A DNA stretch of 64,000 nucleotides, taken from positions 806,001-870,000 of the forward strand of contig JBAIAA010000751.1 in the NCBI GenBank assembly GCA_037893245.1, given 5' to 3'. Below the pieces are notes generated by a model. That model was not told the origin of the DNA, made no database searches, and saw only the letters and a program-made list of their open reading frames with translations. Source of the stretch: Crossaster papposus (lineage: Eukaryota; Echinodermata; Asteroidea; Velatida; Solasteridae). Positions within the stretch are counted from its first letter, which is position 1. Each line of letters starts with the position of its first letter. Of this stretch, positions 1-63,394 are shown piece after piece. A program made the position numbers and the translations under genes.

Positions 1-29
1 GCCTGTACTTCCAGAGATAGAGGGGCCTA

Positions 30-910: not shown

Positions 911-925
911 GTAAAAACACTGAAA

Positions 926-10560: not shown

Positions 10561-10567
10561 AGAAAAG

Positions 10568-11789: not shown

Positions 11790-12370
11790 TCTTCAGCCGA
11801 ACCGATCTTAAAATCAGCTACGAAATTTCGGAATTTGTTGTACCGGTATTCGCGATAAGAGATACAGAAAAACGCACAGACACGTCCGCTTCTCGTAAAT
11901 CCAAAACTTTTTCTGAAAACAGCTGGCCGGACGGCTCATCTCATTGGTGGAAAGTCTGGACACGCTCATGCATAATTCATAATTCATGGTGTTTTGCCGT
12001 TTCCAAGTTGTTGCTCGTTCATCGATATACTTCAAATTTGAGAGTTTAATTTGCGCCTCATCCTACAGTGTAATATCACATTTTCATCGAATTTTGCTAA
12101 GTGGGTAATTAGTATTTTATAAGATAAGAAAAACCCAATTTTAGCTAAAAATGTATTTGGTACGATATAACTTAATTTATAATTTTTGAAAGAGCGCTTG
12201 ACAACAAAACGCAATCATGTGTACGTCATAATCGCGCACGTACGTCACTCTGTACATATTAATAGCGCTGTGCCAATTGGCTAAACACACAGACGTCTGC
12301 GCGTACGTGTGAAGTGATCTTTTATGACGTAGTTAGTCGCGAATAGTTGGCGTGTTCGACTAGAGTTCGT

Positions 12371-15190: not shown

Positions 15191-15436
15191 GGGGCCAATT
15201 TCATAAAACGTGTAAGCACCAACATTTTGCTTAGCATGAAAATTCATCTTGGAAAAAAACGGGTTACAAGGCAAACCAAAATGTTTGTTGATGTTTAGTG
15301 TTTGTGATTGGTATTCAGCTGGTTTTTGCTTTGAATGAAAAGCACATGAGTTCTGGCTGATAACTTGTTTTTATTGAGCAAGACTTGTTTGTGCTAAGCA
15401 AATTGTTGTGCTTGCATGTTTTATGAAATTGGCCCC
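15191..15436. mobile_element. MITE with GGGGCCAATTTCA ends, copy 1
   Basis: GGGGCCAATTTCATAAAAC at the left pairs with TTTTATGAAATTGGCCCC at the right. Internal GCTTAGCATGAA and TGCTAAGCAAATTG segments are subterminal inverted repeats. Related copies lie at 32,247-32,489 and 41,598-41,841, each ~245 bp. Ends of this kind are, to my knowledge, frequent in echinoderm DNA. Confidence 0.8.
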
Positions 15437-15479
15437 TGGCGTGTCAGTCACCAGCGGGAGGAGGGCGTGTATATACCAA

Positions 15480-15799
15480 TAATTAGAATAATCATGTATA
15501 TCGTATGCCAGCATTCCGTCTATACGTCTGTTCTTGATCTTCAAAATCAGCATCTTCCAATAGACACTGTTTAGTTGTTGGCTCGTAGCAGAACTTGTAG
15601 CGTTCTGCTGTGCGCAGCCCGCGGCGCATCGCTGCTTGGAGCCCCGTACAGACGAGGCGAAAACACGGTGCCGAGTAGTCGCGCCTTGACTAAGCAACTC
15701 GAACTCGACAGAACGATTTAATGCCGGCTCGGCCGAAGTCATTCCGGCTACGAGAATTGCACAACTGACTACCACAACAGTGAGGAATAGACTCCCCAT
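15480..15799 (-). pseudogene. Broken copy of PAN-domain exon 1
   Basis: The first 73 codons (MGSLFLTVVVVSCAILVAG onward) match exon 1 of the gene at 28,528 almost exactly, including the signal peptide. A 4-nt deletion relative to that exon, in the codons after RCAAGCAQQNA, shifts the frame. The 3' end with the splice donor is replaced by unrelated sequence. It lies downstream of the FAMeT exons on the same strand, so it cannot be their first exon. The upstream flank is duplicated too. Confidence 0.85.
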
Positions 15800-15892
15800 G
15801 CTTTGCGTCTTAAGTACTTTCTTGTGTTTTGCTATTAACTAATTGTCCCGAAAAACAGTCCTACAGTCCTTGAACCGTCACCATCTTTGAGT

Positions 15893-28528: not shown

Positions 28529-29660
28529 GCTTTGCGTCTATACTTTCTTGTGTTTTGCTATTAACTAATTGTCCCGAAAAACAGTCCTACAGTCCTTGAA
28601 CCGTCACCATCTTAACTAAAGTGATGCAACGTTGCCAAGCACCGCGATATCTGCAAATAATTTCCCTATTATTCCCCGTTTTCCCTGTTATTGGTTACAC
28701 CCTCTCACGTGATCAGTCACTTCTCCTTATGATAAGCAATTTGCGAGTTAAATTTAAATAACATCTGGTACACTGACTTGTTTAAAATGCAAATGCTTGG
28801 TGTGTTTTATCTTCTCCAGACTAAATACACTGTTGCTATATCACGTTGCTATACGTGTAGTTGTCGTAATCGTGATTTATGACTAGTAATGGTAAAAGCT
28901 TCTTTTCACCGTCGCGTTTACATGTATATTTTTTTTAATTTTAATAATTAAAACGAAATGAAATTACGGCAGACCTTGAGTCCTTTCATTAGTCTTTTAA
29001 ATACAAAGTGTACTTATATTTTTATTAAGTGAACGACAGCAATTACAACAACGCGTGTATAGACAACAAAATTAGAATTAAAAATTAATCAGGAAGTCAC
29101 TTTGCAAATAAATATTTGTAGAGACAAAGTCATACTAGACACCGAAAGAAACTGAATTTGCATTTACAATTATTTTATTCACACACACAAAAGAAACAAT
29201 AACGATAGCAAAGATTAAATTATTTGCAATTATGTTTACGATTCACATTTTTGGGGGTGTGTATTTAATTTGTTTTGTATGCTTTTAATTTTCGTATGTT
29301 TTTTTTATATATTTTGTATTTGTTACAAATTTATTTTAATTGCGTTTCCTATATTTTCCATTTATTGGTCCACAAAAGGTCCACATTTTCCGGGGTAAAT
29401 AATGGTATTTTGATGTAGAAATAACGGTACTGACACACGAACAATTTTGGTTCCATATTTTGTCCCATCAGTACAAATTCGCACCTCCCCATACAAAATC
29501 CTGCGTACGGGCCTGGCCACATAGTACAGGTTCCCACTTTCAAAATTGGCTTTTCTCCTTAGGGCCCTTTTTGTTTTTTATCCAGGCCTGGAGGGTTTTG
29601 TCCTGAAGACAGGAACTCTATCTAGAAGTCGCTGCACCTCCTCCACAAAGTCGGCCATGA
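28005..29660. repeat. Tandem segmental duplication, unit X
   Basis: This unit contains PAN exon 1, its upstream flank, a truncated GCAGGCCCG MITE and a possible small exon at 29,578. It is repeated, rearranged, at 29,672-31,655. Confidence 0.85.
28216..28528 (-). CDS. PAN plus FAMeT gene exon 1 (signal peptide, PAN)
   Basis: 313 nt from ATG to a GGTGAGT donor, phase 1. It encodes the signal peptide and the PAN-like cysteines. It is the only one of the four copies in the window that is unbroken. Confidence 0.85.
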
Positions 29661-40500: not shown

Positions 40501-43500
40501 GATGCATTAATATCTTTATACACCATGCAGGCTTTTCAACAGTACATGCATTTTGGTTGGTTACTTTCTGGTATACTTCAGCTTTAAAGGGATCGTATAC
40601 GTTTGGTAATTGGAACCCACTCTTTTTTTCAATCCTATATAGTTATAGATATATACCATAAAACTAACCTGTACAAATTTCATTTCAAAAGGTGGTAGCA
40701 ATATCAAGACATTGCCAAAAATCTGGAGCGGTTATGTCCACGCAGGAAGAATAATCTTCATTGGAATACACAATCTGAGAAACGTCACTACAGTAACGCT
40801 ACTCAGATTCAAATTTTTGGGGATAAAAAGTGATATCTCTTTCCATAACCGCAGTACTTCGAAGCGAAAAGTTTCTAAAAATGCATTATACTATCCAAAG
40901 CTGCTGTACTTCTTACCATTTCAGGTTATTCCAGCCAGTAAGCAGTTTGCAGCAGTATTCATCTTATTCGTACTTCTTACCAAGTAAATGTTGATTTCCA
41001 TTAATTTTTGGAGTAATTACCAAACGTATACGATTCCTTTAAAGACATTTAAAAAAAAAAAAAAATTGGCCCAATCACGGTCATGATAATCTCTTGCCAC
41101 AAAGTGTATACATAATGTAAACAGGTTTTTGCCCTTAACTACAGTAGCAAGCCCTGTCAACAAACATTGACTGCCAACATATAGGGCTGGACAGTTCAAG
41201 AAATTTTAGATCACTAGATATTTTTGTCTCAGTTGAAATGTTACCCAATCAATGAGCAAGAACTGGTAAAATGCTTTACAAAGGTGGAATCCACATACCT
41301 GGCTTGCAAGGGCTGTGCTGATGCCATTGCCAAAGGAGCCATCTGTTTGCTGTTTGCTCCTAATGCAGGACACCGTCTTATTAAACTTGTGCTCAAAGCG
41401 CGACCTGAAGGAAGCAGGCACGCTGGGTTTGGCACAGGACATGGCCATCACAGTCAAGGATGCAACATCAGGACCTACAGTTAACAAGCCACAAGTCAGT
41501 TCCAATTAAAAACGTTGGTTCATTCAAATTAATTGTTTGTGAGGTAATTTGGCCAGATGACAGCTAGCTTCACTGCAAACAGTTTGTGAATGGGTTCGGG
41601 GACCAATTTCATAAAACATGTACGCGCACAAATTTGCTTAGCATGAACATTTTTCCTTGGCAAAAACAGGGTTACCAAATTTTTAGGTGATGTTAATGGT
41701 TTGTGACTGGTATTCATCTGTTCTTGTTGTTGTTAATAGCATGAAAAGTACATGGTTTGGGATGGTAACCTCTTTTTACCGAGCAAGACATTTTGTGCTC
41801 AGAAAATGGTTGTGCTTACCGTGTTTTATGAAATTGACCCCATAATGGCAAGAACCTATCTTGCGCAACCCTCTACTCTACATCGTGTCCCTAAGATCCT
41901 AGATCCACAACTGACCTTCCCCATCAAACCTGTAGCAACCGTCTTCCCTTTGCCCGCCCAGCAGCTCCCGGATGTGCTTCAGCTTCACCGCACCGTCTCC
42001 GCTCTGGCAAAGTGCCAGCACCCCCAACGAGTACTGGAAGTGGTTGTTGAACCCTTCCCGGGGGAAAACTCGCATGTTGTGTTCTAGTAGCTCCACCAGG
42101 TCGTTGCCGTAGAAATCCTGTGTGTCGTGGCAGGTGGACTCCAGTGCTAGGACGTACATTGCCAGGCGGCCTACCGATATTTTGGCCAGGCGGGAGTGAC
42201 GCTGGGAACTGGTACCACAGCCACTTAGTCTGTAAAAAATCCCAACAAAATACATTTGAATTTTTTTAAACAGATTATATTAACAAGATGCAACTAAACA
42301 AAAATATGGTTCAACTTAAAAGGATGGGTTTAAATTCAGGGGAAACTGGATCAGCATTTAACAGCTACCAAGTTGAATGCTTGAGCCGATGCACTGCACT
42401 TGAACATCAATCCGAGATGGGCTAAAGCCGGTATCTGTGGGTAGCACACCCTGATATTCCCGGCCTCGCTTGCTGCAAACCGGTCGCTGCCCGATACTTT
42501 CGTGAGATAAGTGGACCTGCACCTCAGCACTGAATCAACTCTTCCACTGGGAAGGTTCAGTCCCTCGGTCATCCAAACCAGGATATCATAAATCTGCCAA
42601 AAGTGTTTGCCACTTTGCCTTAAATGTTCCATTAAGCGGGATTTCCTCCATCGTGACAAAATAAAGTACAAAATAAAAACAGAAAGAATATTTTTTTAAA
42701 CCAAACTCCGTACTTAGCAAATCGCCCAAGCTCAGCCAGGAGCTCAATCTCAAGCTGTTTGATTCCTAGCTGTGTCTTGAGTGCATTCTCGTGATACCAG
42801 CTCTCATTGGCCAACTGCATTGCCATGACAACAGAGGAGGTGCTGATGCCACCATTCCAGCCCCAGTCTTCATCCTGTTGCCGTAGCAACCACTTGGCTG
42901 CATTTACACGGGCACAGGTGACATCATCATCTACACAGGCGGTGGGCGTTTGGATAGGACTGTCCCCTGTGGAATAAAGGTTCAGTTTAATAGTCTTATA
43001 ATTTGTCCAATACATTGCTGTTTTATGGTTTGACAGCACAGTCCAGTCTTTTGCATGTGTTCCTATGTGGAACACAATTCTGCACACAGCTTCACTGTAT
43101 ACCAAAGATCGTAGAGCGCCGCTCTATGGTCTTTGGTGTATACACTATATATGCACAAAGACAAAGTATGTGCATTTTTGTGCTGCTAAACAACTGACCC
43201 AAATAGTGACTTCTACATATGAGGGTTAAAGAAAAGAAAAGTATACCTTTTGTAACCATCCAAAAATTTTACCAACCAAGTTATTGTTTAAAAGCTTACT
43301 TTACTTTAAAGGTTGAATATACCTTTTGAAACTATTCAAAAAGTAACCAACCAAAATACTGTTGAAAAGCTAAAATTGTAAAGATATTTTGATTCTAAAC
43401 TCCGTGTAAAATTATCTTGTCTGACATGCTGTCATTTTTAAGAAAATGACAAAAGAATGTCAAATGTGCGTCTTAGAGACGCACATTTAGGCATTTCCTT

Positions 43501-49215: not shown

Positions 49216-49669
49216 TATAACAAATCACTCACAGATTCTGCACAATTTCAGCTTCCTGAAAGTATAGTAATGACAACAAATCTCCGAATTATACGTCTCT
49301 CGATCATACGTGTACTTTGTTGCCTTGATGAACGAGTGCGAAGGTGATAGAGCAATGTTTACGCAATGCACCGAAACACACGTCTGGGTTTCAGTCACGC
49401 TTTCGTTGCTATGCGCATCGTTCGTGTGTTGCTATGCGCATAGTCCTTTTTGCGTGGTATAGTCTTTTTGGATAGCGCAAGTAAAAAATAGTAAAAATAG
49501 CAAGTGACACGTGCCGCGCTCTCGGCCAATCAAGACACAGAATCTGTGAGTGAGGTGTTATAAAGAGCTATATTCAATTTAATATAGCTATGAATAGTAC
49601 AAAGCGCGAGAAGTCACGTGAGCGTCAATTCGAATGGTCTCGCGCTTACTCGAAGTACGTACGCGCGGG
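49216..49669. other. Intergenic stretch
   Basis: It contains TTGCTATGCGCAT direct repeats at about 49,407-49,440. No gene. Confidence 0.4.
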
Positions 49670-50089
49670 GAATTAATAATCGAACACGCCAACTATTCGT
49701 GACTAACTACGTCATAAACGCTCACTTCACACACACATGCAGACTATACTACTGCGTTTAGCCAATAAGCACAGCGCTATGTGCAGAGTGACGTACGTGC
49801 GCGATTATGACGTAGCACAGGATTGCGTTTTGTTGTCAAGCGCTCTTTCAAAAATTATAAATAAAGTTATATCGTATCAAATACATTTTTAGCTAAAATG
49901 AATTTTTTTTGATCTTATAAAATACTAATTACCCACTTAGCAAATGTCGATGAAAATGTAATATTACACTGTAGGATGAGGCGCAAATTAAACTCTCAAA
50001 TTTGAAGCATATCGATGAACGAGCAACAACTTGGAAACGGCAAAACACCATGAATTATGAATTATGCATGAGCGTGTCCAGACTTTCCA

Positions 50090-50094
50090 CCAAT
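50090..50094 (+). promoter_or_regulatory. CCAAT box candidate
   Basis: CCAAT lies 156 bp upstream of the exon 1 ATG and is kept in the inverted duplicate (ATTGG at about 11,944). No TATA box is evident. Confidence 0.35.
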
Positions 50095-50249
50095 GAGATG
50101 AGCCGTCCGGCCAGCTGTTTTCAGAAAAAGTTTTGGATTTACGAGAAGCGGACGTGTCTGTGCGTTTTTCTGTATCTCTTTTCGCGAATACCTGTACAAC
50201 AAATTCCGAAATTTCGTAGCTGATTTTAAGATCGCGGTTCGGCTGAAAA

Positions 50250-50292
50250 ATGGGCTGTCACGAGTCCAAGAAGCGAAAGCGGCGTGCTCGAG
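50250..50292 (+). CDS. Scaffold gene exon 1, N-terminal acylation motif
   Basis: 43 nt, ATG to GTAAGTTT donor, phase 1. Gly2, Cys3 and Ser6 followed by KKRKRRAR fit an N-myristoylation plus palmitoylation signal with a basic membrane-binding patch. Confidence 0.7.
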
Positions 50293-53200
50293 GTAAGTTT
50301 CTGGCCCCCGGCCGTGGCAAATTTCACACACGCACACTGACACTCGTTCATTGTTTGTACGTACAAACTACAACGTTCTCACGAAAGAGCAAGGAATAAG
50401 ATCCCATATTTTGTTGATATATTATTAAGATACAAAGACAATTGTGGCCCAAGGTATTAAGACTTGAGAGTCGTTTTAAAATCATGTGCGAAGTACGAAC
50501 GTAGGCCTATAACTAACTGTAGACCCATGAACGTGGCGGTATTTACGGGTCTAAAGTAGGACGTATTTAGTTTAATTAGATTGTTGATTTTATTTTCTTG
50601 CTAGCAATAGCATGCAACAGCAGCAGCAAGATCACGTGTTTCATATCGCAAATTTATGACCTCACAATGCGCCCATTGTGTGGTCATAATGACTACACAA
50701 CATGGGCATTATGATTTCCCTTGTAAAAACATTATCGAGGTCGGCATGGCGTCATAAAGGGCAAGCCCGTCGATAGCAACATGCAAAATCTCAAATTTCC
50801 CCCTTTGCGATAACGTTTTACATACCTGTAGGGCCTACATGTATATGCAATGTTGTACAATGTACTATAAAATGGGTAGGGTTAGTCCAAGTTTGTATGG
50901 AGTTAATCTAAGTTTTTGGTAGAATTGAGTGATAAAAATGTATTAGAATGAAATAAAATCATTATATAGGCCACGATGATAATTATAGTTTTACACATTT
51001 GCGTCCCTTAATTCTTCCAAATAGGCACTTGGGGAGACAAATTAGCGTAAGTTTTTAGGTAATAAGGAGACAGTGGCACTTAGCCTAGGGAGACATTTCA
51101 GTGTCTCCCTAAGTGTCTAGCTACCCTAAAAATATATATTTGGGAGTTATTTTTGTCCTAGAACGACAGATTTTGGTCTAAATAGCATAAATCTCGAAGA
51201 TCTTAGAGAATATTTTTCATTACTTTATTTTAGGTTGTGAATTGTTTGCATGGGTCCAGAAGTTGTTTCATGTTCATTTTAGGCTCAAATGTTTAAACTT
51301 GTTTCTTGGAAAATACAGGTCCTGTGGAAAAAGGAAGTTCAGTGCATGCATGGGATTGAATAACAAAGCAATACGATTTAAATGCTCAAACTTTCGGGAC
51401 CAGTTCAGACTTGAATTATTTTTACTTCATTATATTCCCAAGTTTAATTTGTCTTTTAAAATAGCTATTCCTGGCTACACAACTGATTAAGACCTTACTT
51501 AAGACCTTATGTGGTAAGGGGTGTTTGCATGTTTGTTTTTATTTGAGTGAAAGGGTTAGCATTATTTCTACTATGAAAAGAACAATCTTAAGTTCGAGGT
51601 GCACTGTGAAGTGTAATAAAGCGTTCTGAAATAAGCCACAGTTAAATGTAGTATACACATTGGTAATCGCTTGAATTATCAGAAATGGGTAAATTTGATT
51701 GGCTGTATTTTTTTGCAAATATCGTTCAAATTATGCTGTTTGAAGTTTTACAATCATGGATGCAAAACAAAAGAGAGAAAAAACAGCGTTCGTTTTCAAC
51801 CATCGGGCCGTTGTTTTTATTTAATATTTATGTTATTTTTAGCAGCAATTGCGAAAAATGTATAAAATTCAGCTTTTGAAACAATCACAGGATTCCTAGC
51901 ACAATCATTTTTTTGGATGCCTAGAATCATCATTTACTTTCAAATAAAGTAAGATATTTCCTAAAAATTCAGAAGCAAAATGCTTTGATATCCGCAAATG
52001 ATGTATCTTACATTTAACCTTTTAACACTTTGTTGTCTTAGAATCTGGCAATGAGCACCAGAAGCTTTCCAGGAGTGCTTTGAAGAAGCAAAAAAAGGTA
52101 AGTTAACAATGAGGAAATGTCAGGACATTTTTACTTGTATTTGCAGTCCAACAAATGTATACGTTTTGTGAATTCATGTTCAAAGATACTATTTTCGATT
52201 ATCAAAATAAATAATGTATTTGCAGAGATGTAGTAAAGTCCCTAAAAATCACCATTAAAATCAGCCTCATGGTTCTCTTGTATCTCCCCCTATCCAGGCT
52301 AAGGCCAAGGTGGCCAAGGCCCTGGCCGAGACCAAGGCGAAGGGTGATGCTGAGCTGAGAGCTGTAGCTCTGGCCGTAGCTGGACTTGGTGAGTTGTAAC
52401 ATCTCTCAGGGTTTCCACTGAATGTTTTGTAGGGAGAGACCTCATCATGAAAAGATATATCACTGACCAGGAACTATGTATTGCATACACAGAATAGTCT
52501 GCCACTTGGTGATGCCCCCACACCAAAAAAAAGAAAGAAGACATTTAAAAATACAAGTGCTTAATAAATATTGTTTTATTTTGGGAGCTAAAAAGTAATT
52601 TGTATTGAATATACATTACAATTTTAAAATTGTGTTGTCAACTCTGCAGGAGAGGTCCAGCTGCCTGCCATTACAAGCAAGCAAACCCATGAGCAAACCC
52701 CTGAGCAAACCCCTGAGCAAATCCCTGAGCAAAATACCACCACCCCTGAGCAATCCCTAACCAATGAGCATACTACCCCCGAGGAAATCCTGAAGGTCAG
52801 ATATTACCTTTTTTGGTCAAAGTACTTACAGTTCAAAACTTTTAAAAACTTGATTTGCCAACAAATAAGTTTAAATTAAAAACAATATCACAAACACCAA
52901 TTAATACTTCATGCAAAGCAATTAAAGTCAAAGTGAGTTTGACAATGTTTACTTTTTACTTTTTGTTAAGCATGAACCAACATCAAGCTAGATAACATCC
53001 TTTATCATATGACAAAAAATATAGGGCATTTTAAGAGGCTGATAGATAACATCCCGAATATTGAGATTATATTACCTTTTATTCACAGGAAATGAAGAAA
53101 GAGACAAAGGAGGAGATGAAGTCCCCCAACGGAATGATGACTACTGATTTCTCTGTCGCAGCTGCCATTACTGATGCAGTTGCCAAGGTGACCAATGACG

Positions 53201-56200
53201 ATGCTGTGATAAAGAATGAGGACCTGAAGGCCATCCTGGGGCTGACCCAGGTGAATAACTTACCCACCCCCCCCCTCCCCCAAACAATAATAATAATAAA
53301 TAAATAAATAAATATAACAAAATTAACTTAAATAAAATCTCACTATTTTCTTGATTTATGTGCCTACATGATTTAAAAGCACATACATTTTCTGCTTGTG
53401 CTGTTATTAGAGAATTGTGATTCTTGGTGCAGAATTCTGTGGTTAGCAAGTGTACAAACTCGGACATATTGTCCAGGTTCCAGTATAAGGGTGCTATAAT
53501 GATACTTGGTATAAGTACAGCCAGGTTTGACTTTACCTCACACAAGTATATGATTTTCGGTTTATTTTCAATTTCTTATTAACGAGCCTTGATTTCCTTT
53601 ATTTGACAGTCTACCCTGGCCACTGAGCGTCCTACCAGCTCCGCATCCATTGAACCTAGACTGATTGTTGTCAATGAGGCTGACATCTGCATTGACAACA
53701 CCGTGGACAAACCACCTACTGAAGTGAGTCCCTTTATTGTAATATTTAACTTCAGTAGTTTGCTATGAATAGAAGTAAGTAGTGATAGTGATGGTGATAG
53801 TGGTACAAAGGAATGGGATGACGATAATGGTGATGAAAATGATGAAGACAACAGATAAGTTTATTTGAGGACCAGTGGATAACTAATGGTTGATCTGTGA
53901 GGTAGGTAGTACCTACACACTTATACTGAAGTCAAAACATCTCAAGTCAAAGCATAATTTTAAACTCCTTGCTGTACAATATATGGGTGTATTGGTTCTT
54001 AGCGAAACAATCTTCCTTTTTAAGTATAGGCTATACCCCTGAATTAACCTATCACAGTAGAACTGTGTCAACGCATGCAGCTTGTGAAATATCAATGCCG
54101 AATTTGAAAAAATCTGAGAAAAACACACATTTCTGCACAAAATTCGCTAAGGTTAATTTACAGTTAAAATAATAATAATGATTGGTTGGTTTGATTGAAG
54201 TAAGCTGATAAGTATAGTTTCTGCTGGACCTTGCTTACATTGCTGACTTTTCAAATGTGATCTATGCAGGCACTGATCAAGAAGCCTACCATCACTGACA
54301 AGGATATACAAGCTACTGTTGCCTTGATGAGTGAGAACAAAGATGTAGAAATCAAGGAAGAGGATGACGAGGATACTGATCAGGTATGAGATTTGTTCAA
54401 TAAAAAACCTTTTCCTGAAATAGTTGTACTAATCACAGTACAGTCACTGTGAGAGTTCCGGATCACTTTTTATACTAAACGCCACACATCGGCATATTCT
54501 CCTCTTCATTAGACCAGTGACATCATTTTGTAGTAAACAAATATTCCACCTCATCTACAACCGAAACTGCCGGTTGACAAAGACTCATTCAAGGGAAATA
54601 AATCTCAAGTTTTTTGCTGGATTTAACGCAACAGTTCCGGATCACGCATTGCCTGTCATTCAAACAGCGCGCATTGACCAATACTATTACGAGTTTTAAT
54701 CAGGTAACTTAGCAACAGTTGCTACAGGCATGGTTTGTGACCACACCCACTAGCTCAGCTATAGGGCAGTCTGCATACGTTATACTATGGTTATACGTTT
54801 CTGCATGCATCACATCAAAGGTGATCTGCAACTGTCACATCGCAGAAAAAAAATCTTTTGACAAATACGGCAATTCAGTTAATTCACATTTCCAATTTCT
54901 TTTTACTATATACTAAATTTTCTAAAATTACTAAATTTCTTTTCAGAATATTGCAAAATAATAGACGTTGAAATTTGTGGGGGGAAAATCAGGTTATATA
55001 CTTGAATTAAATCTAAGTTAATCAAATTGATCCAGAACTGTCTATGATCCAGAACTGTCGCACCGACTGTACACATTAGAAATCTGTGAAACACAAACCA
55101 GCAAATATGATGTGACATAGAATTCATTTTGATTTCACACTGTTTTATTTTATCATCGCATACAATGTTTAATTTGTGTAACTGTTATTATGATTAGACA
55201 GTCCAGGATTGGATGCTTTTTCACTCTTTTAAACCAGGACTCTTCCAGCAGCCTGAAAGTGGAAGCTGATAACCTGGTGAAGGCCGTCTTTGCCAGTCTG
55301 GACAAAGATGAGATGAGTGCACCTCAGCCAGAAGGGCTAGAGTCTGCAGCGGATGAGGTAAGTCAACATCAAAGTAGACAAGCATCAATTACATCAATTG
55401 CATTATAACTTCATTGGCACATATGTTCACTAAAGATACAAGGCTGGGCATCCACTACCGCCGGTATAACTGTACCGGCCAGCCTGTAGCTCGGCCGGTA
55501 AGTTTTATCCTCTTGGTACCGGCCGAGACTCTGACTGAGGCACTTACACGCTTTGGAGATTCTTTGTGTTCAGGCTCCATAGCAGATTCCTATCTTGGAC
55601 CAAACAATGAGGAGTGTTTATAATTCGCTTTCTCCTCCACTGGTCCACAAAAGGCCTAAATACATTTATTTAATACTTATAATGTAATGTATGCAGTGCT
55701 TCATGACAACCAATTAATTTGTGAAAATGCCATGTAAAGAAATTTCAAGATGCAGTCAGGAAGCTTGTTTACGCCATGCTTACACAATATACAATAATTC
55801 TGCTTAAAACCCTTTTGTTGAACTCTGGAGGCTAACATGCTGTGTTTTGCTTGAGAGACTCTGATTGTGCTCTAATGTGTCGACGAGATATACTGCAGTA
55901 AGACCAGCCTTGTACCAGCCGAGAGGGGCAATTAAGGGGCTGGCCAGTAAAAAAAACGGCCGGTAATGGATGCCGGGCCTAACTTTAAGATTTTAAATTG
56001 TTGTAATTTTGTTATATATCATGATTAGACAGTCCATGATTGGTTGCTTTTTCTTTCTTTTGTATATCAGGACTCTTCTAGCAACCTGGAAGTGGAGGCT
56101 GCTAATCTGGTGAAGGCCGTCTTTGCCAGTCTGGAAAAAGATGAGATGAATGCACCTCAGCCAGAAGGGCTAAAGTCTGCAGCTGATGATGAGGTAAAGT

Positions 56201-59200
56201 CAACATCAAAGTAGACAAGCATCAATTGCATCATAACTTTATTGACATATGTTCACCAAAGATACTAGGCTGGGCATCCACTGCCGGCCTGTAACTGACG
56301 TACCGGCCAGCCTGTAGTTCGGCCGGTAAGTTTTATTATCTTTATACCGGTCGAGGTACTGGCCGAGACTCTGACTGAGGCGGCTTACCCAATTTGGAGA
56401 TCCTTTGCAAAGGGGCTGACAGTAAAGAAACTGGTCGGTAATGGGTGCTGGGCCTAACTTTAAGATGTACAATTTCAATTTCTTATTAACGAGCCTTGAT
56501 TTCCTTTATTTGACAGTCTACCCTGGCCACTGAGCGTCCTACCAGCTCCGCATCCATTGAACCTAGACTGATCGTTGTCAATGAGGCTGACATCTGCATT
56601 GACAACACCGTGGACAAACCACCTACTGAAGTGAGTAGATGACTTTATTGTAATATGAATGGAAGTAAGTAGTGATAGTGATGGTGATAGTGGTACAAAG
56701 GGATGGGATGGTGATAATGGTGATGAAAATGATGAAGACAACAGACAAGTTTATTTGAGGACCAGTGGATAACTAATGGTTCATCTGTGAGGTAGGTTGT
56801 ACCTACACACTTATACTGAAGTCAAAACATCTCAAGTCAAAGCATAATGGGTGCTGGGCCTAACTTTAAGATGTACAATTTTTGTAATGTTATATATCAT
56901 GATTAGACAGTCCATGATTGGATGCTTTTTCTTTCTTTTGTATTATCAGGACTCTTCCAGCAGCCTGGAAGTGGAGGCTGCTAATCTGGTGAAGGCCGTC
57001 TTTGCCAGTCTGGACAAAGATGAGATGAAAGCACCTCAGCCAGAAGGGCTAGAGTCTGCAGCTGATGAGGTAAGTCAACATCAAGCAGGCCATGCAGACA
57101 AGCATCACCTTCATTAACACATATGCTCACCAAATTTACTTACTTAGCTATAGACAGCCCTTTAGGACAATGGCAGGAATTAAAAAAACAGAACGTAGAA
57201 CACTAAATAACTTTAAACTTGGCACTGCATATTCTAGACAGTTTAGCGTAAGTTTTACGGCATTAATAATAACATTATAATAAATATTAATAATAATAAT
57301 AATAATAACTTAAGATTTATTATAGTGCCCAATTGCTTATACATGAAATAAATCATGCTCCCAGGTGCTTATGATGGAAGTGAAGAAAACCTATGATTAA
57401 AATACAAACTATTAACCAGAACATTATTAAAATTTAAACATACAAAATATCAACTAAAACCCAAATTTATATTTAATAAAAATTAAAATTCACTGAGAAA
57501 AATGCCATAACAATACACGAATATCTCACAATAATAAAAACCCTTGTATGTAAAAACAGTTTGAGAAACTTTAAAAACAGCCATTAGCCTATAGACATGT
57601 GAGCAATTAGGTTAAAAAAGCTTGCTAAAAAAAAGCCGATTTAAACCCGATTTAAATTTCCTGAGAGTAAGTAAGTAGTTTACTTCATATATTTGAATAA
57701 CAATTTATATCATTTTTCTAAGATTTATATATTCATAATATTGATTACTTAAAGTGATAGCTATGGACTGTCTGCATAAACATGAAATGAAGCTTCATAA
57801 ACACTCAGAAAAGTTCATACATTCTTTTGGTACATAGCGTTATGGGGACGACCCATAGGGTTTGTGTGTAAACTGAAATCTCTCTAATCTCAAACTCAAA
57901 ACACTCAAAAATTATAAAATTATCAGGATGACCCTAATTTGTCCTCTTCTTCATTTTCTTTCATTATACCCTAACCCGATTTTACCTTGTTCTACCTTTA
58001 CTGAACACCCAACGCGCTATGGGGACTCGAAAATGTCCCCACTACTCGATCTGTCTTTTCCAAACAAAAGAGCCTGTCCCCCTAACGCGGTGCGTTTGTA
58101 TTGACCGGCAATCGTGGTCGTCGGACAAAAGAATTGGGAGTCAAACAATGGGTCCACGATTGACACAACGTCCACGATCTTTTCCCGTGTACAAATCCTA
58201 TGGCGATCATCAAAAAACGTTAGTGTATAAACAAAAGAGGGAAGACGGTCGGACAATATACCCCGTCCACGATCGAAGGCCTTTACACACTTGTGTGAGT
58301 GCCTACCCTGCATCTGAAACACACCAATGCTGGGCTATATGCCTCGTATATATAGTGGCAATGGTCATGTGCCTGTGTGCACAGAATTCTCAAAAGTCAG
58401 ACATGTCTTTTCTTTGATGGTTATAGATTACTGCAGCAGAGCAGGCAGCCATTTTGGAGCAGGAGGCTGCTTATCTTGTGGATGCTGTCTTTGACAGCTT
58501 GGATAGAGAAGATGAAGAGGAGGCAGAGACTACACCACCAGTCATTGATGACATGGTGGGTTCAATTCTATGTTTGGATATTATTACAATGTTTATCGAA
58601 ATTCTAGAACGAAATGAATAACAGCTATATGAATAAAGTTGTGAAACAAAGTTGTATGCGTTAACAACAAAAAACAAATTATGCAAAATTAAGTTCATTA
58701 CTAATACAATGAAAGTCAGATCTGAACTCATGTCACATGCTATTATACTGACAGCTTGACTTACGATTATTGACTTATTTCACATGTGACAGCTGACTAA
58801 TTGGGTGATTGACTTGATTATAACTCTGAGACACTGAGATGATTGAACAACTCAATATTTGATACTTTTTTAACACTATAAACTCAGTTTTGTTCAGAGA
58901 GATTATGTGAAGAAAAAAATCGAACCCAAGACCTCCTGCTTTTTAGCATGTTGTACATCATTGTTTAAATATGTCAACATTGAAATGAAATATTTGGTAT
59001 TTATACCTATAGCAGCCTATGGGTGTGTCAGTAGAAGCATCTTCTAATCTGGTGGAGGAGGCGGCCCGAATCGTAAATGCTGTCCTAGCCCGTGCTACTG
59101 CAGACTTCCAGTCTGAAGGGCAGATCAATGCTTCAAACATAGAGACATTTGACATGGTAAGTTATAAATACAAAGAAATTTGTCAGATTCTTACAATTCT

Positions 59201-62200
59201 TTCCAAAATTGGTAATACTCAAAAAGCATGCAGTTTACATCACTAATCTTATTTATGCATATTTTCCTAGACCGGCAGTTATTACTGCTAAGAGTTAATA
59301 GCGCCCTCTGGCCTCCTACCCATAGTGCCCCTTATTATGTATTTCTCGTGCGCATCCTCTCTTCTCTTAGCGGCAGGTCGGGTAGGACGTGTTTATAATA
59401 CGCTGATATTGTCTTTTCTGCTACTGTTATCGCTTAAGAGTAGTATTTAATTAAAGTTGAGATAAAGTTCAGTTGTATAGTGGTGTTTTTGTCCGACTCA
59501 GTTTATTTATTAAGAAATAAAATGTTTTCGCGCATATTTCGCCAATAATGAACGTCGTGCGACATTTATGCAGCATTCGTACATATGTCGCGCGATTATC
59601 TTGCGAAAGGCTTGCGTTTGCTTCTTTGGCAAAGTCACCTGTTCTCAAGAAGTACGCGAACAGTTCGTAAATCGCTCGGGAAATGATCGGAACGAACTTC
59701 GCTCCTTTCGCGAGACATGCGCGATACATTCTCCAAACTGTCGGAATCTGTTTGGGGTTTTACAAAGATTTTGCGAAACATCACGCACGTCATGAGTAGG
59801 TCGTGCGCATATGACGAAGCTTTTAAGACATTTTCGAGATCAAATCACGAGCAAATCACAACCCGGAATGCTAGAAGCAAATTTTTTGAAATCCCCGCCG
59901 AACTAAAAATGACTCCCGCGAACAATTGACGACGCTTCTGAACCCCCGCGCATGTTTGGCGAACTTTTGAACTTAGAATACCAATGCTGGACTTTGCCAT
60001 TTATTCGGCATTCGCATCCTTCTCAAATCGTTCCCGTGCCCCGTAAAAAACCCATGCACCCTAGTGCTTGAGAGAAAAAGGACGTGCACGAATCATACAT
60101 GCTGCAGGGCACAATTGGTAGGAGGCCAGAGGGCGGGTCTAAATTGTAATTGTAACCTATAACCAACTACCTATGTTTGCAATTTTGATGATCCCCTCTT
60201 CTATATGGGAACGGATTTCTGTGAATGATAATTTTCCTCCTCGTAAATTTTAGCAGCCTCATGATGATTTCCAGGATGAATCTCAAAAATACAACCTGGA
60301 CCAACAGGCTGCAGAAATGGTTGATGCCGTGCTAGCCAGCATTGCCACCTCTCCAGAGGACAAGGTCCCAACTCTGTCAAAGACAACAGACACTGATGCA
60401 GTAAGTTAAGACACAATTAAGTTACTAGCTGTACTTTTTAAAATTTGATCAAACCTGAAAGTTCAGCAACCCTCAATTGTGTCTTTTTATCAACAGACTT
60501 CCAACACTACATCAGTCGACACAGCTGAGTTGACACGTATCATCTTGAATGGGTTGAAGAAATCAAGCATCAACCTTGTTCGCCTGAACTCTGAGATGTC
60601 CACTCAGACTTGTGAGATGTCCATTCAAACTGATGATGTAAGTCAAACCAACATAAATAAAGTCACTATACAGCTAAAATACTTTGACATTAGGGAACTA
60701 TACTTGAAAACTAAACCTACAGATACAACTTTTGGGATAACTTTTTTCTTGACATTTTTTTTCAGATCAAAAGTGAGGAGGCAAGTCCATCAAAAAAGCC
60801 TTCAGCTGTATCTAAGATTAAAGCAGCCTTCAAGTCGGCATCCAAGAAAAGCCGAACGGCTCTTCTGGGCAAAAAGGATAAACAGAACGTGGATACAAAA
60901 TCCAGTGGGAGTGGCAAAGACATCAAACCTGACAAGGCTTCTGGCAAAGGCAAGACCAAGTTGGCTGATAGTAAGAAGCCTGCCCGCGATGTGAAGAAGT
61001 CTACAAGCCGTCGCAAGAAGTCTCCCACTGTTGCTCGTAAGAAGTCTCCCACTGTTGCTCGTAAGAAGTCATCAACTGAGCTAAAAGCCCGCAATGCATC
61101 AAGCAGGATGCTAAAACTCAAAGAGGCTGCAAATAACACATCTTTAGGTTCCACAGCCTCCAGCTCCAAGGGCAAAGAGATCTCCACTAAGAAGTCAGAG
61201 TCTTCCAAACATTCTCAGAAGTCTGCTACTGCAGCAAGAAATACTACCAAGAGCAAACCTAAACCTGCCGAGAAGTTGAAGGCTTCTAAGAGCTCTTCCA
61301 GTCAACGCAAAGGTGACAAACACAAATCACCAAACAACTCTGCAAGTGCCCATACAGCAAGCAACAAGGAGTGTACAGTATCTGCCAACACTTTGCCAGA
61401 GGAAAAGCAGCAACCCAAAACAGCAAGTGTTGCTAGTAATGCAACAAAATCATGTGACAAGTCAACTATGAAATCCAAGTCATCTCGCAACGTGAAGCCA
61501 GGCCGAGTGAGCTTCCAATTAAGCACCACAGGACGTTGCCTCATCAGCCCATCACAAAGTAATGCAGACCTCCACTGTGGAAAGTATGGACGGTAACATT
61601 GCACTCACATCCACTGACCATCCAGGCACTTCCAAGCTGAGTGCTAAGCGCCAGAAGCATTTTGGGAAAGGTAAAATGTCCATCACGTGCGATGTCACTC
61701 CCCGCAGAGCCAACTCTGCACGCCAGGCCCATGGTCAAAAGACATCCTTGGCCATGCTTGCAGAAGCCAGACCCAGTACAGTGTTGGCTACTCAGATGGA
61801 ATCTGCCAGCAAAATGGATCATTTATCTCTTCCGGAATCTGACAGCAGTGCCATGGGTGACAACACTAAGGTGATCAGGGAAAACAGTGTCACACATCAA
61901 CTATCTTTGGAAGACCAACCATTGGATGGACTACAGCAGGATGCTATTACTGCAGTGAATGATAACAGTCAAGAACATCAGCAGCAGGTTCAGGTGCAAA
62001 TTCAGCTGTTGCGTGGCAATAATACCAACACTGTTAACCATTCAACAGAGGATTCTGAAAGTACCAGTGAAAAAAATCCTCTCAGTAGAGCTTCAAAGAT
62101 TCCAACTCCGACAAAGATGGCTTCCAACAAGCCATCAAGTGATACTCTGTGCGGCCCTGGTCACCTTATCAGAGATGCGGCAGGTGCTCTGGAGAAGCAG

Positions 62201-63394
62201 CGACAGATAAAGAGTAGAGCGACCACTCCCTCCACCACTCCCGGTCATCTTACACCAGTACCAAGCGAGTCCCGGCAGAGCACTTCAAAGATCCCAAACA
62301 AGAACTACATCGTGGATTCTAGAACTCCTGGTGAGAGGAGTCCTCTCCATCAACAAGCCTCAAAGATTCCAACCCCGACAAAGATGGCTTACAACAAGCC
62401 ATCAAGTGATACTTTGTGCGGCCCTGGTCACCTTATCAGAGATGCGGCAGGTGCTCTGGAGAAGCAGCGACAGATAAAGAGTAGAGCGACCACCCCCTCC
62501 ACCACTCCCAGTCATCTTACACCAGTACCAAGCGAGTCCCGGCAGAGCACTTCAAAGATCCCAAACAAGAACTACATCGTGGATTCTAGAACTCCTGGTG
62601 AGAGGAGTCCTCTCCATCAACGAGCCTCAAAGATTCCAACTCCGACAAAGATGGCTTACAACAAGCCATCAAGTGATAATCTGTGCCGTCCTGGTCACCT
62701 TATCAGAGATGGGGCAGATGCTCTGGAGAAGCAGCGACAGATAAAGAGTAGAGCGACCACCCCCTCCACCACTCCCGGTCATCTTACACCAGTACCAAGC
62801 GAGTCCCGGCAGAGCACTTCAAAGATCCCAAACAAGATAAACATCGTGGATTCTAGAACTTCTGGTGAGAGGAGTCCTCTCCATCAACGAGCCTCAAAGA
62901 TTCCAACTCCGACAAAGATGGCTTACAACAAGCCACCAAGTGATACTCTGTGCGGCCCTGGTCACCTTATCAGAGATGCGGCAGATGCTCTGGAGAAGCA
63001 GCGACAGATAAAGAGTAGAGCGACCACCCCCTCCACCACTCCCATTCATCTTACACCTGTACCCAGCGAGTCCCGTAACACTCCAGAGATCCCAAACAAG
63101 AACAACATCATGGTATCTGGAACTACTGTTGAGAGAAGTCCTCTCCGGCGAGCCTCAAAGATTCCAACTCCGACAAAGATGGCTTCCAACAAGTCATCTA
63201 GTGATACTCTCTGGAGCCCTGGTCACCTTATCAGAGATGCGGCAGGTGCTCTGGAGAAGCAGCGACGAATAAAGAGTGTGGCAACCACCCCCTCCACCAC
63301 TCCAGGTCATCTTACACCTGTTTGCGGTGCTGGGGAGTCTCCCCGTCAGGAGAATGCTGAGGTGCAGCTTGGCTGCACTCAGCGCCAACATTAG
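50250..63394 (+). CDS. Candidate acylated AKAP-like scaffold with SxIP repeats, 16 exons
   Basis: Exons 50250-50292, 52042-52097, 52298-52388, 52650-52795, 53089-53250, 53610-53723, 54270-54383, 55238-55357, 56071-56193, 56517-56630, 56950-57069, 58427-58555, 59013-59156, 60254-60400, 60497-60637 and 60766 onward join with GT-AG sites and consistent phase (588 aa before exon 16). Domains in order: MGCHESKKRKRR (myristoyl/palmitoyl plus basic type); Glu/Pro repeats; seven or more short amphipathic helices of the form AxxLVxxVFxxL, like PKA R-subunit docking helices of AKAPs; MSTQTCEMSIQTDD (LC8-like); a Lys/Ser-rich region with KKSPTVAR repeats; then 89-aa repeats with SKIP motifs. The frame changes between 61,523 and 61,593: uncorrected, the protein ends at 864 aa; with the switch it is ~1460 aa. 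I recognise no named family. The function is inferred from motifs only. Confidence 0.75.
50293..52041. other. Intron 1 of the scaffold gene
   Basis: The first 700 bp belong to the inverted duplication. 51,890-51,970 is a dispersed repeat (also at 22,090 and 38,805). I see no other gene. Confidence 0.5.
52042..52097 (+). CDS. Scaffold gene exon 2
   Basis: 56 nt, acceptor TTGTCTTAG, donor GTAAGT. Encodes ESGNEHQKLSRSALKKQKK, basic. Phase fits exon 1. Confidence 0.7.
52298..52388 (+). CDS. Scaffold gene exon 3, Ala/Lys helix
   Basis: 91 nt, acceptor CTATCCAG, donor GTGAGT. Encodes AKAKVAKALAETKAKGDAEL plus RAVALAVAGL, predicted helical. Confidence 0.75.
52650..52795 (+). CDS. Scaffold gene exon 4, PEQ repeats
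   Basis: 146 nt, acceptor CTCTGCAG, donor GTCAGA. Encodes repeated TPEQ / IPEQ, low complexity, probably a disordered linker. Confidence 0.75.
53089..53250 (+). CDS. Scaffold gene exon 5
   Basis: 162 nt, acceptor TTCACAG, donor GTGAAT. Encodes an acidic/basic stretch, then FSVAAAITDAVAKVTNDD, a divergent form of the amphipathic helix. Confidence 0.8.
53610..53723 (+). CDS. Scaffold gene exon 6 (STLATERP module, copy 1)
   Basis: 114 nt, phase 0 at both ends. Encodes STLATERPTSSASIEPRLIV plus NEADICIDNTVDKPPTE. The protein sequence is the same as exon 10. Confidence 0.85.
53724..54269. other. Intron 6, GTGATA-type microsatellite
   Basis: GTGATAGTGATGGTGATAG and GATGATGAAAATGATGAAG runs occur at about 53,780-53,860; duplicated at 56,665-56,750. 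Confidence 0.6.
54270..54383 (+). CDS. Scaffold gene exon 7
   Basis: 114 nt, phase 0. Encodes DIQATVALMSENKDVEIKEE and an acidic DDEDTDQ tail. Confidence 0.8.
54384..55237. other. Intron 7 of the scaffold gene
   Basis: I see only short repeats of GTTCCGGATCAC (54,456 and 54,632) and GATCCAGAACTGTC (55,029 and 55,047). Confidence 0.4.
55238..55357 (+). CDS. Scaffold gene exon 8 (docking-helix module 1)
   Basis: 120 nt, phase 0. Encodes ADNLVKAVFASLDKDEMSAP and QPEGLESAADE. The helix fits AxxLVxxVFxxL. Confidence 0.85.
55441..55982. mobile_element. Intronic TIR element, GGCTGGGCATCCACT ends
   Basis: AGGCTGGGCATCCACTACCG pairs with CGGTAATGGATGCCGGGCCT. CCGGCCAGCC / GGCTGGCC repeats occur inside. 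A shorter copy is at 56,267-56,456 and only an end remains at 56,846-56,862. Confidence 0.8.
56071..56193 (+). CDS. Scaffold gene exon 9 (docking-helix module 2)
   Basis: 123 nt, phase 0. Encodes AANLVKAVFASLEKDEMNAP with one extra Asp codon near the end. Confidence 0.85.
56267..56456. mobile_element. Intronic TIR element, internally deleted copy
   Basis: Same ends as 55,441 (AGGCTGGGCATCCACTGCCG and CGGTAATGGGTGCTGGGCCT) with ~350 bp of centre missing, in intron 9. Confidence 0.8.
56517..56630 (+). CDS. Scaffold gene exon 10 (STLATERP module, copy 2)
   Basis: Protein identical to exon 6; the flanking intron sequence is also duplicated, showing a recent event. Confidence 0.85.
56950..57069 (+). 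CDS. Scaffold gene exon 11 (docking-helix module 3)
   Basis: 120 nt, phase 0. Encodes AANLVKAVFASLDKDEMKAP. Confidence 0.85.
57070..58426. other. Intron 11 of the scaffold gene
   Basis: An AATAAT microsatellite is at 57,280-57,308. A plus-strand frame at 58,019-58,417 has no recognisable domain. Confidence 0.45.
58427..58555 (+). CDS. Scaffold gene exon 12 (helix module 4)
   Basis: 129 nt, acceptor TTATAG, donor GTGGGT. Encodes EQEAAYLVDAVFDSLDREDE, divergent in sequence but with the same spacing of hydrophobic residues. Confidence 0.82.
59013..59156 (+). CDS. Scaffold gene exon 13 (helix module 5)
   Basis: 144 nt, donor GTAAGT. Encodes NLVEEAARIVNAVLARATAD. The acceptor is ATAGCAG, so it may start at 59,013 or 59,016, adding or skipping one Gln. 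Confidence 0.82.
59302..60136. mobile_element. Intronic TIR element, CGCCCTCTGGCCTCCTACC ends
   Basis: The 19-bp end CGCCCTCTGGCCTCCTACC is perfectly inverted at 60,118-60,136. 59,893-60,058 resembles the centre of the foldback element (46,150-46,315). No target duplication is visible. It lies in intron 13 of the scaffold gene. Confidence 0.8.
60254..60400 (+). CDS. Scaffold gene exon 14 (helix module 6)
   Basis: 147 nt, donor GTAAGT. Encodes LDQQAAEMVDAVLASIATSP. Again a TAGCAG tandem acceptor with an optional Gln. Confidence 0.82.
60497..60637 (+). CDS. Scaffold gene exon 15 (LC8-like motif)
   Basis: 141 nt. Encodes TAELTRIILNGLKKSSINLV, a last helix, then MSTQTCEMSIQTDD; TQT is the core of dynein-light-chain LC8 motifs. 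Confidence 0.8.
60766..61596 (+). CDS. Scaffold gene exon 16, first frame (Lys/Ser-rich)
   Basis: After a TTTTTTTTCAG acceptor, 276 codons rich in Lys, Ser and Ala, with SKIKAAFKSASKKSRTALLG and tandem RKKSPTVA. It stops at TAA 61,594-61,596. The second frame is already open from 61,523, so the two overlap by ~70 nt. Confidence 0.8.
   Translation: MKSEEASPSKKPSAVSKIKAAFKSASKKSRTALLGKKDKQNVDTKSSGSGKDIKPDKASGKGKTKLADSKKPARDVKKSTSRRKKSPTVARKKSPTVARKKSSTELKARNASSRMLKLKEAANNTSLGSTASSSKGKEISTKKSESSKHSQKSATAARNTTKSKPKPAEKLKASKSSSSQRKGDKHKSPNNSASAHTASNKECTVSANTLPEEKQQPKTASVASNATKSCDKSTMKSKSSRNVKPGRVSFQLSTTGRCLISPSQSNADLHCGKYGR
61562..63394 (+). CDS. Scaffold gene exon 16, second frame (SxIP repeats)
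   Basis: The +1 frame is open from 61,523 to the TAG at 63,392-63,394. It encodes five 89-aa repeats (start points ~62,091, 62,358, 62,625, 62,892 and 63,153) with ASKIPTPTKMA, GPGHLIRDA, ALEKQRQIKS, ATTPSTTP and TSKIPNKN. The copies retain the reading frame, which argues for coding. It probably continues the upstream frame through one frameshift (real, polymorphic or a sequence error); independent translation from the ATG at 61,562 is less likely. Confidence 0.8.
   Translation: MQTSTVESMDGNIALTSTDHPGTSKLSAKRQKHFGKGKMSITCDVTPRRANSARQAHGQKTSLAMLAEARPSTVLATQMESASKMDHLSLPESDSSAMGDNTKVIRENSVTHQLSLEDQPLDGLQQDAITAVNDNSQEHQQQVQVQIQLLRGNNTNTVNHSTEDSESTSEKNPLSRASKIPTPTKMASNKPSSDTLCGPGHLIRDAAGALEKQRQIKSRATTPSTTPGHLTPVPSESRQSTSKIPNKNYIVDSRTPGERSPLHQQASKIPTPTKMAYNKPSSDTLCGPGHLIRDAAGALEKQRQIKSRATTPSTTPSHLTPVPSESRQSTSKIPNKNYIVDSRTPGERSPLHQRASKIPTPTKMAYNKPSSDNLCRPGHLIRDGADALEKQRQIKSRATTPSTTPGHLTPVPSESRQSTSKIPNKINIVDSRTSGERSPLHQRASKIPTPTKMAYNKPPSDTLCGPGHLIRDAADALEKQRQIKSRATTPSTTPIHLTPVPSESRNTPEIPNKNNIMVSGTTVERSPLRRASKIPTPTKMASNKSSSDTLWSPGHLIRDAAGALEKQRRIKSVATTPSTTPGHLTPVCGAGESPRQENAEVQLGCTQRQH
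62091..63336 (+). repeat. 267-bp coding tandem repeats (89 aa), five copies
   Basis: Periods are 267, 267, 267 and 261 bp. Copies 1-3 are nearly identical; copies 4 and 5 are more diverged, and copy 5 is truncated. Confidence 0.92.

Follow-up and report, generated by a model that had tools for sequence, protein, structure and literature searches.

Several known proteins resemble parts of the present locus. The anchor smAKAP (C2orf88, AKAP19) is a small protein with N-terminal myristoylation and palmitoylation and a PKA R-subunit helix, and is described as having one RI-binding domain (PMC13025221). AKAP9 (AKAP350) is a type II PKA binder that is also associated with EB1 (PMC13025221, PMC5668257), a link that may run via p150glued; it is a centrosome and Golgi protein with a PACT domain (PMC5668257). 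RSP3 combines a predicted PKA-anchoring domain with a second helix, which binds DPY-30-domain proteins, and with LC8-type TQT motifs (PMC12399478). AKAP-Lbc (AKAP13), the source of Ht31, is tabulated as an RII anchor (PMC13025221). In the yeast protein Kar9, several linear motifs for EB binding are found in a disordered region that is basic and rich in Ser and Pro, and MACF, APC and SLAIN are named as its functional counterparts (PMC9859758).

The window, which is the whole stretch of Crossaster papposus DNA analysed here (64,000 nucleotides), contains a gene whose coding region extends from an ATG at 50250 to a stop codon at 63394. Both limits agree with the original prediction. As modelled, the coding region is composed of 17 segments with GT-AG junctions and comprises 1,455 codons. 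The gene is real, the encoded protein is long and probably largely disordered, and an annotation of the gene may already exist elsewhere. It is moderately likely that the product, at about 1,455 residues, is a multivalent A-kinase anchoring scaffold that is acylated and also able to bind EB proteins. There are precedents for the parts and for several of their pairings; what may be new is the combination as a whole and how many PKA sites it has, and we know of no single protein with all of it. The features of the gene are the following.

50250..50292, forward strand: exon 1, MGCHESKKRKRRAR, myristoylation/palmitoylation-type N terminus and polybasic stretch
52042..52097, forward strand: exon 2, basic, own frame best of six
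52298..52388, forward strand: exon 3, Lys/Ala-rich, matches the loose helix pattern only, codon test
52650..52795, forward strand: exon 4, EQTP repeats, codon test
53089..53250, forward strand: exon 5, weak helix, loose pattern only, codon test
53610..53723, forward strand: exon 6, copy of exon 10
54270..54383, forward strand: exon 7, fits neither helix pattern, codon test
55238..55357, forward strand: exon 8, AKAP-type helix LKVEADNLVKAVFASL
56071..56193, forward strand: exon 9, AKAP-type helix LEVEAANLVKAVFASL
56517..56630, forward strand: exon 10, copy of exon 6
56950..57069, forward strand: exon 11, AKAP-type helix LEVEAANLVKAVFASL
58427..58555, forward strand: exon 12, AKAP-type helix LEQEAAYLVDAVFDSL
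59013..59156, forward strand: exon 13, AKAP-type helix LVEEAARIVNAVLARA
60254..60400, forward strand: exon 14, AKAP-type helix LDQQAAEMVDAVLASI
60497..60637, forward strand: exon 15, degenerate helix, STQT/SIQT pair (possible LC8 site)
60766..61506, forward strand: exon 16, Lys/Ser-rich basic region
61507..61531, forward strand: frame-change site, modelled as a 25-nt GT-AG intron
61507..61567, forward strand: alternative 61-nt intron, fits nearly as well as the 25-nt one
61532..63394, forward strand: exon 17, runs to the stop codon
62090..63391, forward strand: repeat region, eight SKIP motifs in five units (each about 89 aa long), the end of the last unit being divergent

Exons 1–16 are linked by 15 GT-AG introns, all of them phase-consistent. 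To this extent the original count of sixteen phase-consistent exons stands, but the last of those exons holds a frame change, and the number of segments is 17, or 16 with a frameshift. Codon statistics trained on the last two segments (exons 16–17) were applied to exons 1–15, and the own frame was the best of six in 14 of the 15, exon 12 being the sole exception. Exons 6 and 10 differ by one synonymous change in 114 bases. A bacterial promoter scan of positions 49600–50300 was uninformative, and plasmid, Rfam and tRNA searches found nothing. TAGGCCTA was counted as well; the count is not taken as evidence of the organism.

The segment 60766–63394 does not form a single open exon. Reading from 60766, frame A stops at 61594–61596, and the SxIP part is in a different frame (frame B), which is open from 61523 for 623 codons. 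The codon statistics indicate that frame A is coding up to about 61506–61512 and frame B from about 61546. The one-protein reading depends on a putative junction near 61500–61570, because, unless a short intron or an indel changes the frame at that point, the protein ends at 61594, before all of the SxIP motifs. Scored by codon statistics, introns of 25, 61, 40 and 76 nt reach 45.9, 45.1, 42.9 and 42.1, respectively, and a free switch that leaves a gap of 10 nt reaches 49.0; an indel fits nearly as well as the 25-nt intron. Introns of 154 and 235 nt (31.3 and 23.1 versus 45.9 for 25 nt) were rejected because frame A keeps its coding statistics to about 61506–61512.

It is unlikely that what the gene mainly makes is a shorter protein, terminated at 61594 after about 864 residues, that anchors PKA at a membrane and lacks the EB part, in which case the SxIP part would belong to a minor isoform or be a broken or mis-sequenced extension. 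In favour of such a product are the stop in frame A and the poor splice sites of the junctions preferred by codon statistics: the donor at 61507 scores 0.6, compared to 3.6–13.3 for the other donors of the gene, and the acceptors at 61531 and 61567 score 2.4 and −2.0, compared to 0.4–11.9 for the other acceptors. Furthermore, an intron of 25 nt is, to our knowledge, shorter than any known animal intron. However, the same statistics also mark frame B as coding, both frame and motif are preserved across its repeats, an AATAAA at 63920 is positioned beyond its end, and the 61-nt intron is of ordinary length.

The scaffold reading begins with the N terminus. The Gly2/Cys3/Ser6 and basic N terminus that had been noticed originally is present in exon 1 as MGCHESKKRKRR. 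The N-myristoylation pattern is G-{EDRKHPFYW}-x-x-[STAGCN]-{P}; the sequence MGCHES matches it with Gly2 and a small residue at position 6, provided that the predicted start codon is used. The sequence of exon 1 also occurs in an inverted copy. The N terminus is predicted to be acylated, and a myristoyl group on Gly2, a palmitoyl group on Cys3 and the polybasic stretch could together hold the protein at a membrane. The acylation-type N terminus and the predicted PKA R-subunit helices recall smAKAP. However, smAKAP is described as small and as having one RI-binding domain (PMC13025221), whereas the present protein, which is predicted to have 1,455 residues and carries six helices of RII-like type as well as an SxIP tail, is neither small nor limited to a single R-subunit helix.

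The AKAP helix consensus is given as LxxxAxxIVxxAIxxA (PMC3682517). A pattern adapted from it, in which similar residues were allowed and which was widened after the sequence had been seen, is matched by the helices of exons 8, 9, 11, 12, 13 and 14, compared to a mean of 0.004 and a maximum of 1 match in 2,000 shuffles. The same pattern has no match in a further 77,939 aa translated from the window, nor in exons 3, 5, 7 and 15; a looser pattern is matched by exons 3 and 5 but not by exons 7 and 15. This loose three-turn helix pattern gave nine matches (mean of 1.3 and maximum of 7 in shuffles) and was not relied on because two of the matches are out of register or span an exon border, and exon 14 is missed. 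The six helices belong to four types, and those of exons 8, 9 and 11 are recent copies.

Similarity to Ht31, the sequence of which was taken from PMC6488650 and is that of the 24-residue AKAP peptide in PDB 2drn_C, differs among the helices. Exon 12 scores 34 and exons 13 and 14 score 33 each, values reached by none of 48,299 non-gene background windows, and exon 13 is identical to the Ht31 core in 7 of 16 positions. The scores are 22 for exons 9 and 11, a value equalled or exceeded in 11 of the 48,299 windows, and 17 for exon 8 (106 of the 48,299); exon 15 has no similarity to Ht31. Hydrophobic moments are above most shuffles in exons 12–14 only, and those of exons 8, 9, 11 and 15 are unremarkable against shuffles. 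The seven positions of the docking face are hydrophobic in all four helix types, and several other positions vary. Exon 13 was modelled as a helix with a pLDDT of 87 over residues 11–30. The AKAP-like helices originally proposed are thus supported by the consensus, Ht31 similarity and a helical model, but the six identified here include duplicates. The PKA-anchoring part is well supported at the sequence level, and the helices are predicted to bind R subunits. The helix of exon 13 shares those 7 residues with AKAP-Lbc; neither RhoGEF nor any other family was found in the Pfam scan of the present protein.

The docking partners of the helices might be other R2D2/DPY-30-type domains instead of PKA, as could be the case in a cilium or a sperm tail, which we regard as rather improbable. 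The precedent is RSP3, with its second helix that binds DPY-30-domain proteins (PMC12399478) and its combination of a PKA-anchoring helix with TQT motifs. However, the present helices resemble the Ht31 core of a listed RII anchor (PMC13025221), neither the radial spoke protein 3 domain nor its family was found in the Pfam scan, and an axonemal protein would presumably need neither an acylated N terminus nor SxIP motifs.

The LC8 binding and TQT motifs are the weak part of the original prediction. The protein contains a single TQT, for which shuffles give an expectation of 0.57, and four [STV]xQT (1.6 expected), counts that are not clearly above chance, and LC8 binding was rejected as an established feature. 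The sequences EMSTQTC and EMSIQTD in exon 15 lack the D/S at −4 and the K at −3 of the LC8 (DYNLL) client motif [D/S]Kx[T/V/I]Q[T/V][D/E] (PMC3078936). The two are seven residues apart, and because of this spacing they are probably not occupied together.

The eight SxIP motifs expected from the original prediction were all found, but they represent two motifs multiplied by repeat duplication. Each of the eight [ST]xIP motifs is SKIP (0.85 expected in shuffles), and the net charge around them is +1 to +4. One repeat unit was modelled as mostly unstructured, with a mean pLDDT of 58. The dN/dS values among the repeats are 0.24 to 0.96, indicating that constraint is at most moderate. The motifs are located in basic, probably disordered sequence, as is characteristic of SxIP-type +TIPs, and the repeats are predicted to bind EB proteins. 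Kar9 similarly has several EB-type motifs in a disordered basic region; the present protein differs in that its eight SKIP motifs are in near-identical units and are joined to PKA-type helices. The pairing of type II PKA with EB1 would be shared with AKAP9, whereas no PACT family was found in the Pfam scan of the present protein. The acylation-type N terminus and the SxIP repeats, which agree at the motif level with the original expectations of acylation and of an EB-type C terminus, are candidate targeting features of the protein.

Pfam searches with the whole protein and three parts of it identified no family at the curated cut-off; the sub-threshold matches were Glucokinase, zf-CCHC_2, FliL and Glypican. 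PDB sequence searches with window sequence retrieved no AKAP, EB-binding or LC8-binding chain, and these searches have low power because Ht31 itself retrieved only its own chain and designed proteins. Narrow phrases describing the combination matched no paper in open-licence PMC. It is very doubtful that the product is a disordered microtubule- or membrane-associated protein whose helices and SxIP motifs arose by chance, were multiplied by the repeats and do not have the functions proposed: copies in repeats and duplicated exons are not independent and no family matched in the Pfam scan, but the hydrophobic docking face is kept in four helix types while several other positions vary, and the helix and SKIP counts exceed shuffles and background.

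In the anchoring scaffold that we prefer, each of the six helices could dock one PKA regulatory-subunit dimer, and one chain would possibly gather several PKA holoenzymes. The four helix types may have been multiplied through duplication of phase-0 exons. A Lys/Ser-rich linker would connect the helices to the five disordered C-terminal repeats, the eight SKIP motifs of which could bind EB-family proteins with avidity. PKA would thereby be concentrated where microtubule tips meet the cortex or membrane, a putative location; a site in sperm, egg or cilium is speculation. The last repeat unit contains RRASKIP and three of the four other units contain RASKIP, and RRx[ST] sites number one versus 0.68 expected. 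The serine within the putatively EB-gripping SKIP motifs may itself be in a PKA-like context. It is improbable, as a further step, that the protein is a self-tuning membrane-to-plus-end tether with up to six PKA dimers, from which cAMP would release the gripped microtubule end.

If the full protein is made and its motifs bind as predicted, a single molecule would join membrane, PKA and growing microtubule ends, and each chain would offer several sites for PKA. The protein would provide a simple route by which cAMP could influence microtubule ends at the cortex, and would be an example of exon duplication raising anchoring capacity.

The locus at 50250-63394 on the forward strand is a real gene. 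Rebuilt from the sequence, it starts at 50250 with ATGGGCTGTCACGAG and consists of 17 segments with GT-AG joins and 1,455 codons, in which the sole stop is the terminal TAG at 63392-63394. Of the 15 introns that separate exons 1 to 16, 13 are in phase 0 and two, introns 1 and 3, are in phase 1. The sequence AATAAA is found at 63920. A codon table trained solely on the last two segments was used to score the remaining 15 exons in six frames. The predicted frame was the best of the six in 14 of them; the exception is exon 12, in which one reverse frame scored 0.31 compared to 0.15 for the predicted frame. None of the 390 intron frame-windows of 60 nt reached a score of 5. In six overlapping 60-nt windows covering 61306-61515, the frame open from 60766, which includes exon 16 (frame A), scored between 5.1 and 7.8; the final three windows (5.2, 5.1, and 7.7) fall outside the training stretch.

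The original prediction described sixteen phase-consistent exons, which is correct for the earlier exons but not for the last one. Frame A terminates at the stop codon 61594-61596, and every SxIP motif is encoded in a different frame, open from 61523 (frame B, exon 17). When the borders were chosen freely by codon statistics, the best twelve choices ended frame A at 61500-61512 and began frame B at 61523-61538. The modelled junction is a 25-nt phase-0 intron, with its donor GTGAGC at 61507 and its acceptor CACAG, the last base of which is 61531. Codon statistics were used to score the 49 GT-AG pairs in 61250-61640 that unite the two frames without a stop.

Candidate junctions between frames A and B
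61507-61531, forward strand, 25-nt intron, codon score 45.9
61507-61567, forward strand, 61-nt intron, codon score 45.1
61492-61531, forward strand, 40-nt intron, codon score 42.9
61492-61567, forward strand, 76-nt intron, codon score 42.1
Free switch with a 10-nt gap, as from an indel, codon score 49.0

The 25-nt intron is one candidate junction and is not unique; the region 61492-61567 also allows introns of 40, 61, or 76 nt, or an indel. Splice-site scores support none of the candidates. In a wider search of 497 pairs, the 25-nt pair scored 3.1 compared to 13.2 for the best pair, which excises 577 nt. The donor at 61507 scored 0.6, whereas the other donors of the gene scored 3.6-13.3, and the acceptors at 61531 and 61567 scored 2.4 and -2.0, compared to 0.4-11.9 for the others. 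An intron of 25 nt would be extraordinary for an animal, whereas one of 61 nt would not; the latter choice makes the protein 12 residues shorter. Without any candidate intron or indel, the protein would end at about 864 residues and contain no SxIP motif.

The consensus of RII-anchoring helices is LxxxAxxIVxxAIxxA (PMC3682517). The predicted AKAP-like helices were recovered: with similar residues allowed, six segments match the consensus, one each in exons 8, 9, 11, 12, 13, and 14. The widened pattern has a mean of 0.004 and a maximum of 1 match in 2,000 shuffles of the protein, and no match among the 77,939 residues translated from elsewhere in the window. Since its residue classes were widened after the protein was seen, comparison with Ht31, the anchoring peptide of AKAP-Lbc (sequence in PMC6488650; identical to the AKAP peptide PDB 2drn_C), is the cleaner test. 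In ungapped BLOSUM62 scoring, exons 12, 13, and 14 (34, 33, and 33) lie above all 48,299 background windows, which reach 29 at most. A score of 22, equalled or exceeded by 11 background windows, was obtained for exons 9 and 11, and one of 17, equalled or exceeded by 106, for exon 8; exon 15 gave -1. All seven positions of the docking face carry hydrophobic residues in the four helix types, with a mean BLOSUM62 of 2.95 compared to 1.65 elsewhere, and positions 6 and 11 are always alanine. Exon 12 alone has a hydrophobic moment clearly above shuffles, of which 21 in 2,000 were as high. The excess is less clear in exons 13 and 14 (71 and 90 of 2,000) and lacking in exons 8, 9, 11, and 15 (490, 356, 354, and 574 of 2,000); this result counts against the PKA-type reading. 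An AlphaFold model of exon 13, calculated from seven rows that all come from the gene itself, contains one helix with pLDDT 87 over residues 11-30 (mean 69). PDB searches with the gene sequence retrieved no AKAP, and had low power for so short a motif, because Ht31 as a query gave, apart from its own chain, nothing but designed proteins.

Within 53610-57069, exons 6/10 and 8/9/11 are local duplicates of phase-0 exons, with partly similar adjoining intron sequences. Exons 6 and 10 differ by a single synonymous base in 114. Exons 8, 9, and 11 form three pairs; two have a dN lower than dS (0.068/0.163 and 0.044/0.119), and one has a slightly higher dN (0.045/0.037).

The eight anticipated SxIP motifs are present as eight [ST]xIP sites, all SKIP, compared to 0.85 in shuffles, the repeat copies not being independent evidence. 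Five have the context ASKIPTPTKM, unchanged in all five C-terminal units, and three TSKIPNK; this second site is replaced by EIPNK in the fourth unit and absent from the fifth. The net charge surrounding the motifs is +1 to +4. Unit starts are spaced by 89, 89, 89, and 87 residues, and the later units are 97, 90, 83, and 71% identical to the first, the model of which (mean pLDDT 58) is largely unstructured apart from a short helix at 30-42. The dN/dS ratios among units, 0.24 to 0.96, indicate at most moderate selection on the whole unit. The protein contains 41 [ST]P sites, many within the repeats, compared to 20.8 in shuffles, making proline-directed phosphorylation possible.

The N terminus MGCHESKKRKRR contains the predicted Gly2, Cys3, and Ser6 followed by a basic run, a pattern resembling that of acylated proteins, the start codon being a predicted one. 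An inverted copy of 49677-50775, which covers sequence upstream of the gene, exon 1, and the beginning of intron 1, lies at 11319-12362 on the reverse strand (about 92.5% identity over 900 bases and a 150-base piece at 94.7%). The copied exon 1, with its ATG at 11789, retains MGCHESKKRKRRAR and a subsequent GTAAG. No further exon copies were found in the window by tblastn, which also overlooked this short one, so that additional short exon copies may exist.

The proposed LC8 binding is not counted as supported. One TQT (0.57 in shuffles) and four [STV]xQT motifs (1.6) do not clearly exceed expectation, and the QT pair of exon 15, with members seven residues apart, departs from the natural consensus (PMC3078936) in having neither D/S at -4 nor K at -3.

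Other features of the window
41899-42279, reverse strand, ORF with a Cobalamin_bind Pfam match, E 4e-14
28127-28537, reverse strand, ORF with a PAN domain Pfam match and a signal-like stretch at its start
15371-15838, reverse strand, duplicate of the preceding ORF, with a signal-like stretch at its start
23645-24708, reverse strand, two overlapping ORFs

Judged by its Pfam match, the ORF at 41899-42279 belongs to a transcobalamin/intrinsic-factor type gene; two neighboring reverse-strand ORFs, up to 43123, resemble more of such a gene and have no Pfam match. The ORFs at 23645-24708 resemble a tyrosine-recombinase mobile element, and the one scanned (23971-24708) has no Pfam match. Many direct repeats, about 75-97% alike, cover most of the first 11 kb (1-10900).

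In the proposed mechanism, the N terminus would attach the protein to the membrane, the six helices would gather several PKA dimers, and a linker rich in Lys and Ser (66 Lys/Arg and 18 Asp/Glu among its 247 residues) would join them to the repeats, which would bind EB proteins. Yeast Kar9, Bim1 (orthologous to EB1), and Bik1 (orthologous to CLIP-170) assemble through a multivalent web into a body that remains at microtubule ends (PMC9859758); by analogy, it is plausible that the many SxIP motifs act by avidity. One unit contains RRASKIP, in which the serine that begins the SxIP motif lies in a PKA-type site; since the protein has a single RRx[ST] compared to 0.68 expected, control of this serine by PKA is only an idea.

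The original prediction stands for the gene and most exons, and not for the last exon and LC8. Pairs of the properties occur in known proteins: smAKAP, which myristoylation and palmitoylation keep at the membrane (PMC13025221), combines an AKAP with acylation; AKAP9/AKAP350 combines an AKAP with EB1 association (PMC13025221, PMC5668257), and RSP3 an AKAP helix with LC8-type motifs (PMC12399478). Searches of the open-licence literature, a few of which were directed at the combination, brought up no paper with the full set. We rate the predicted product as an AKAP-like scaffold of unusual multiplicity with an EB-type tail, several of whose property pairs are already known.
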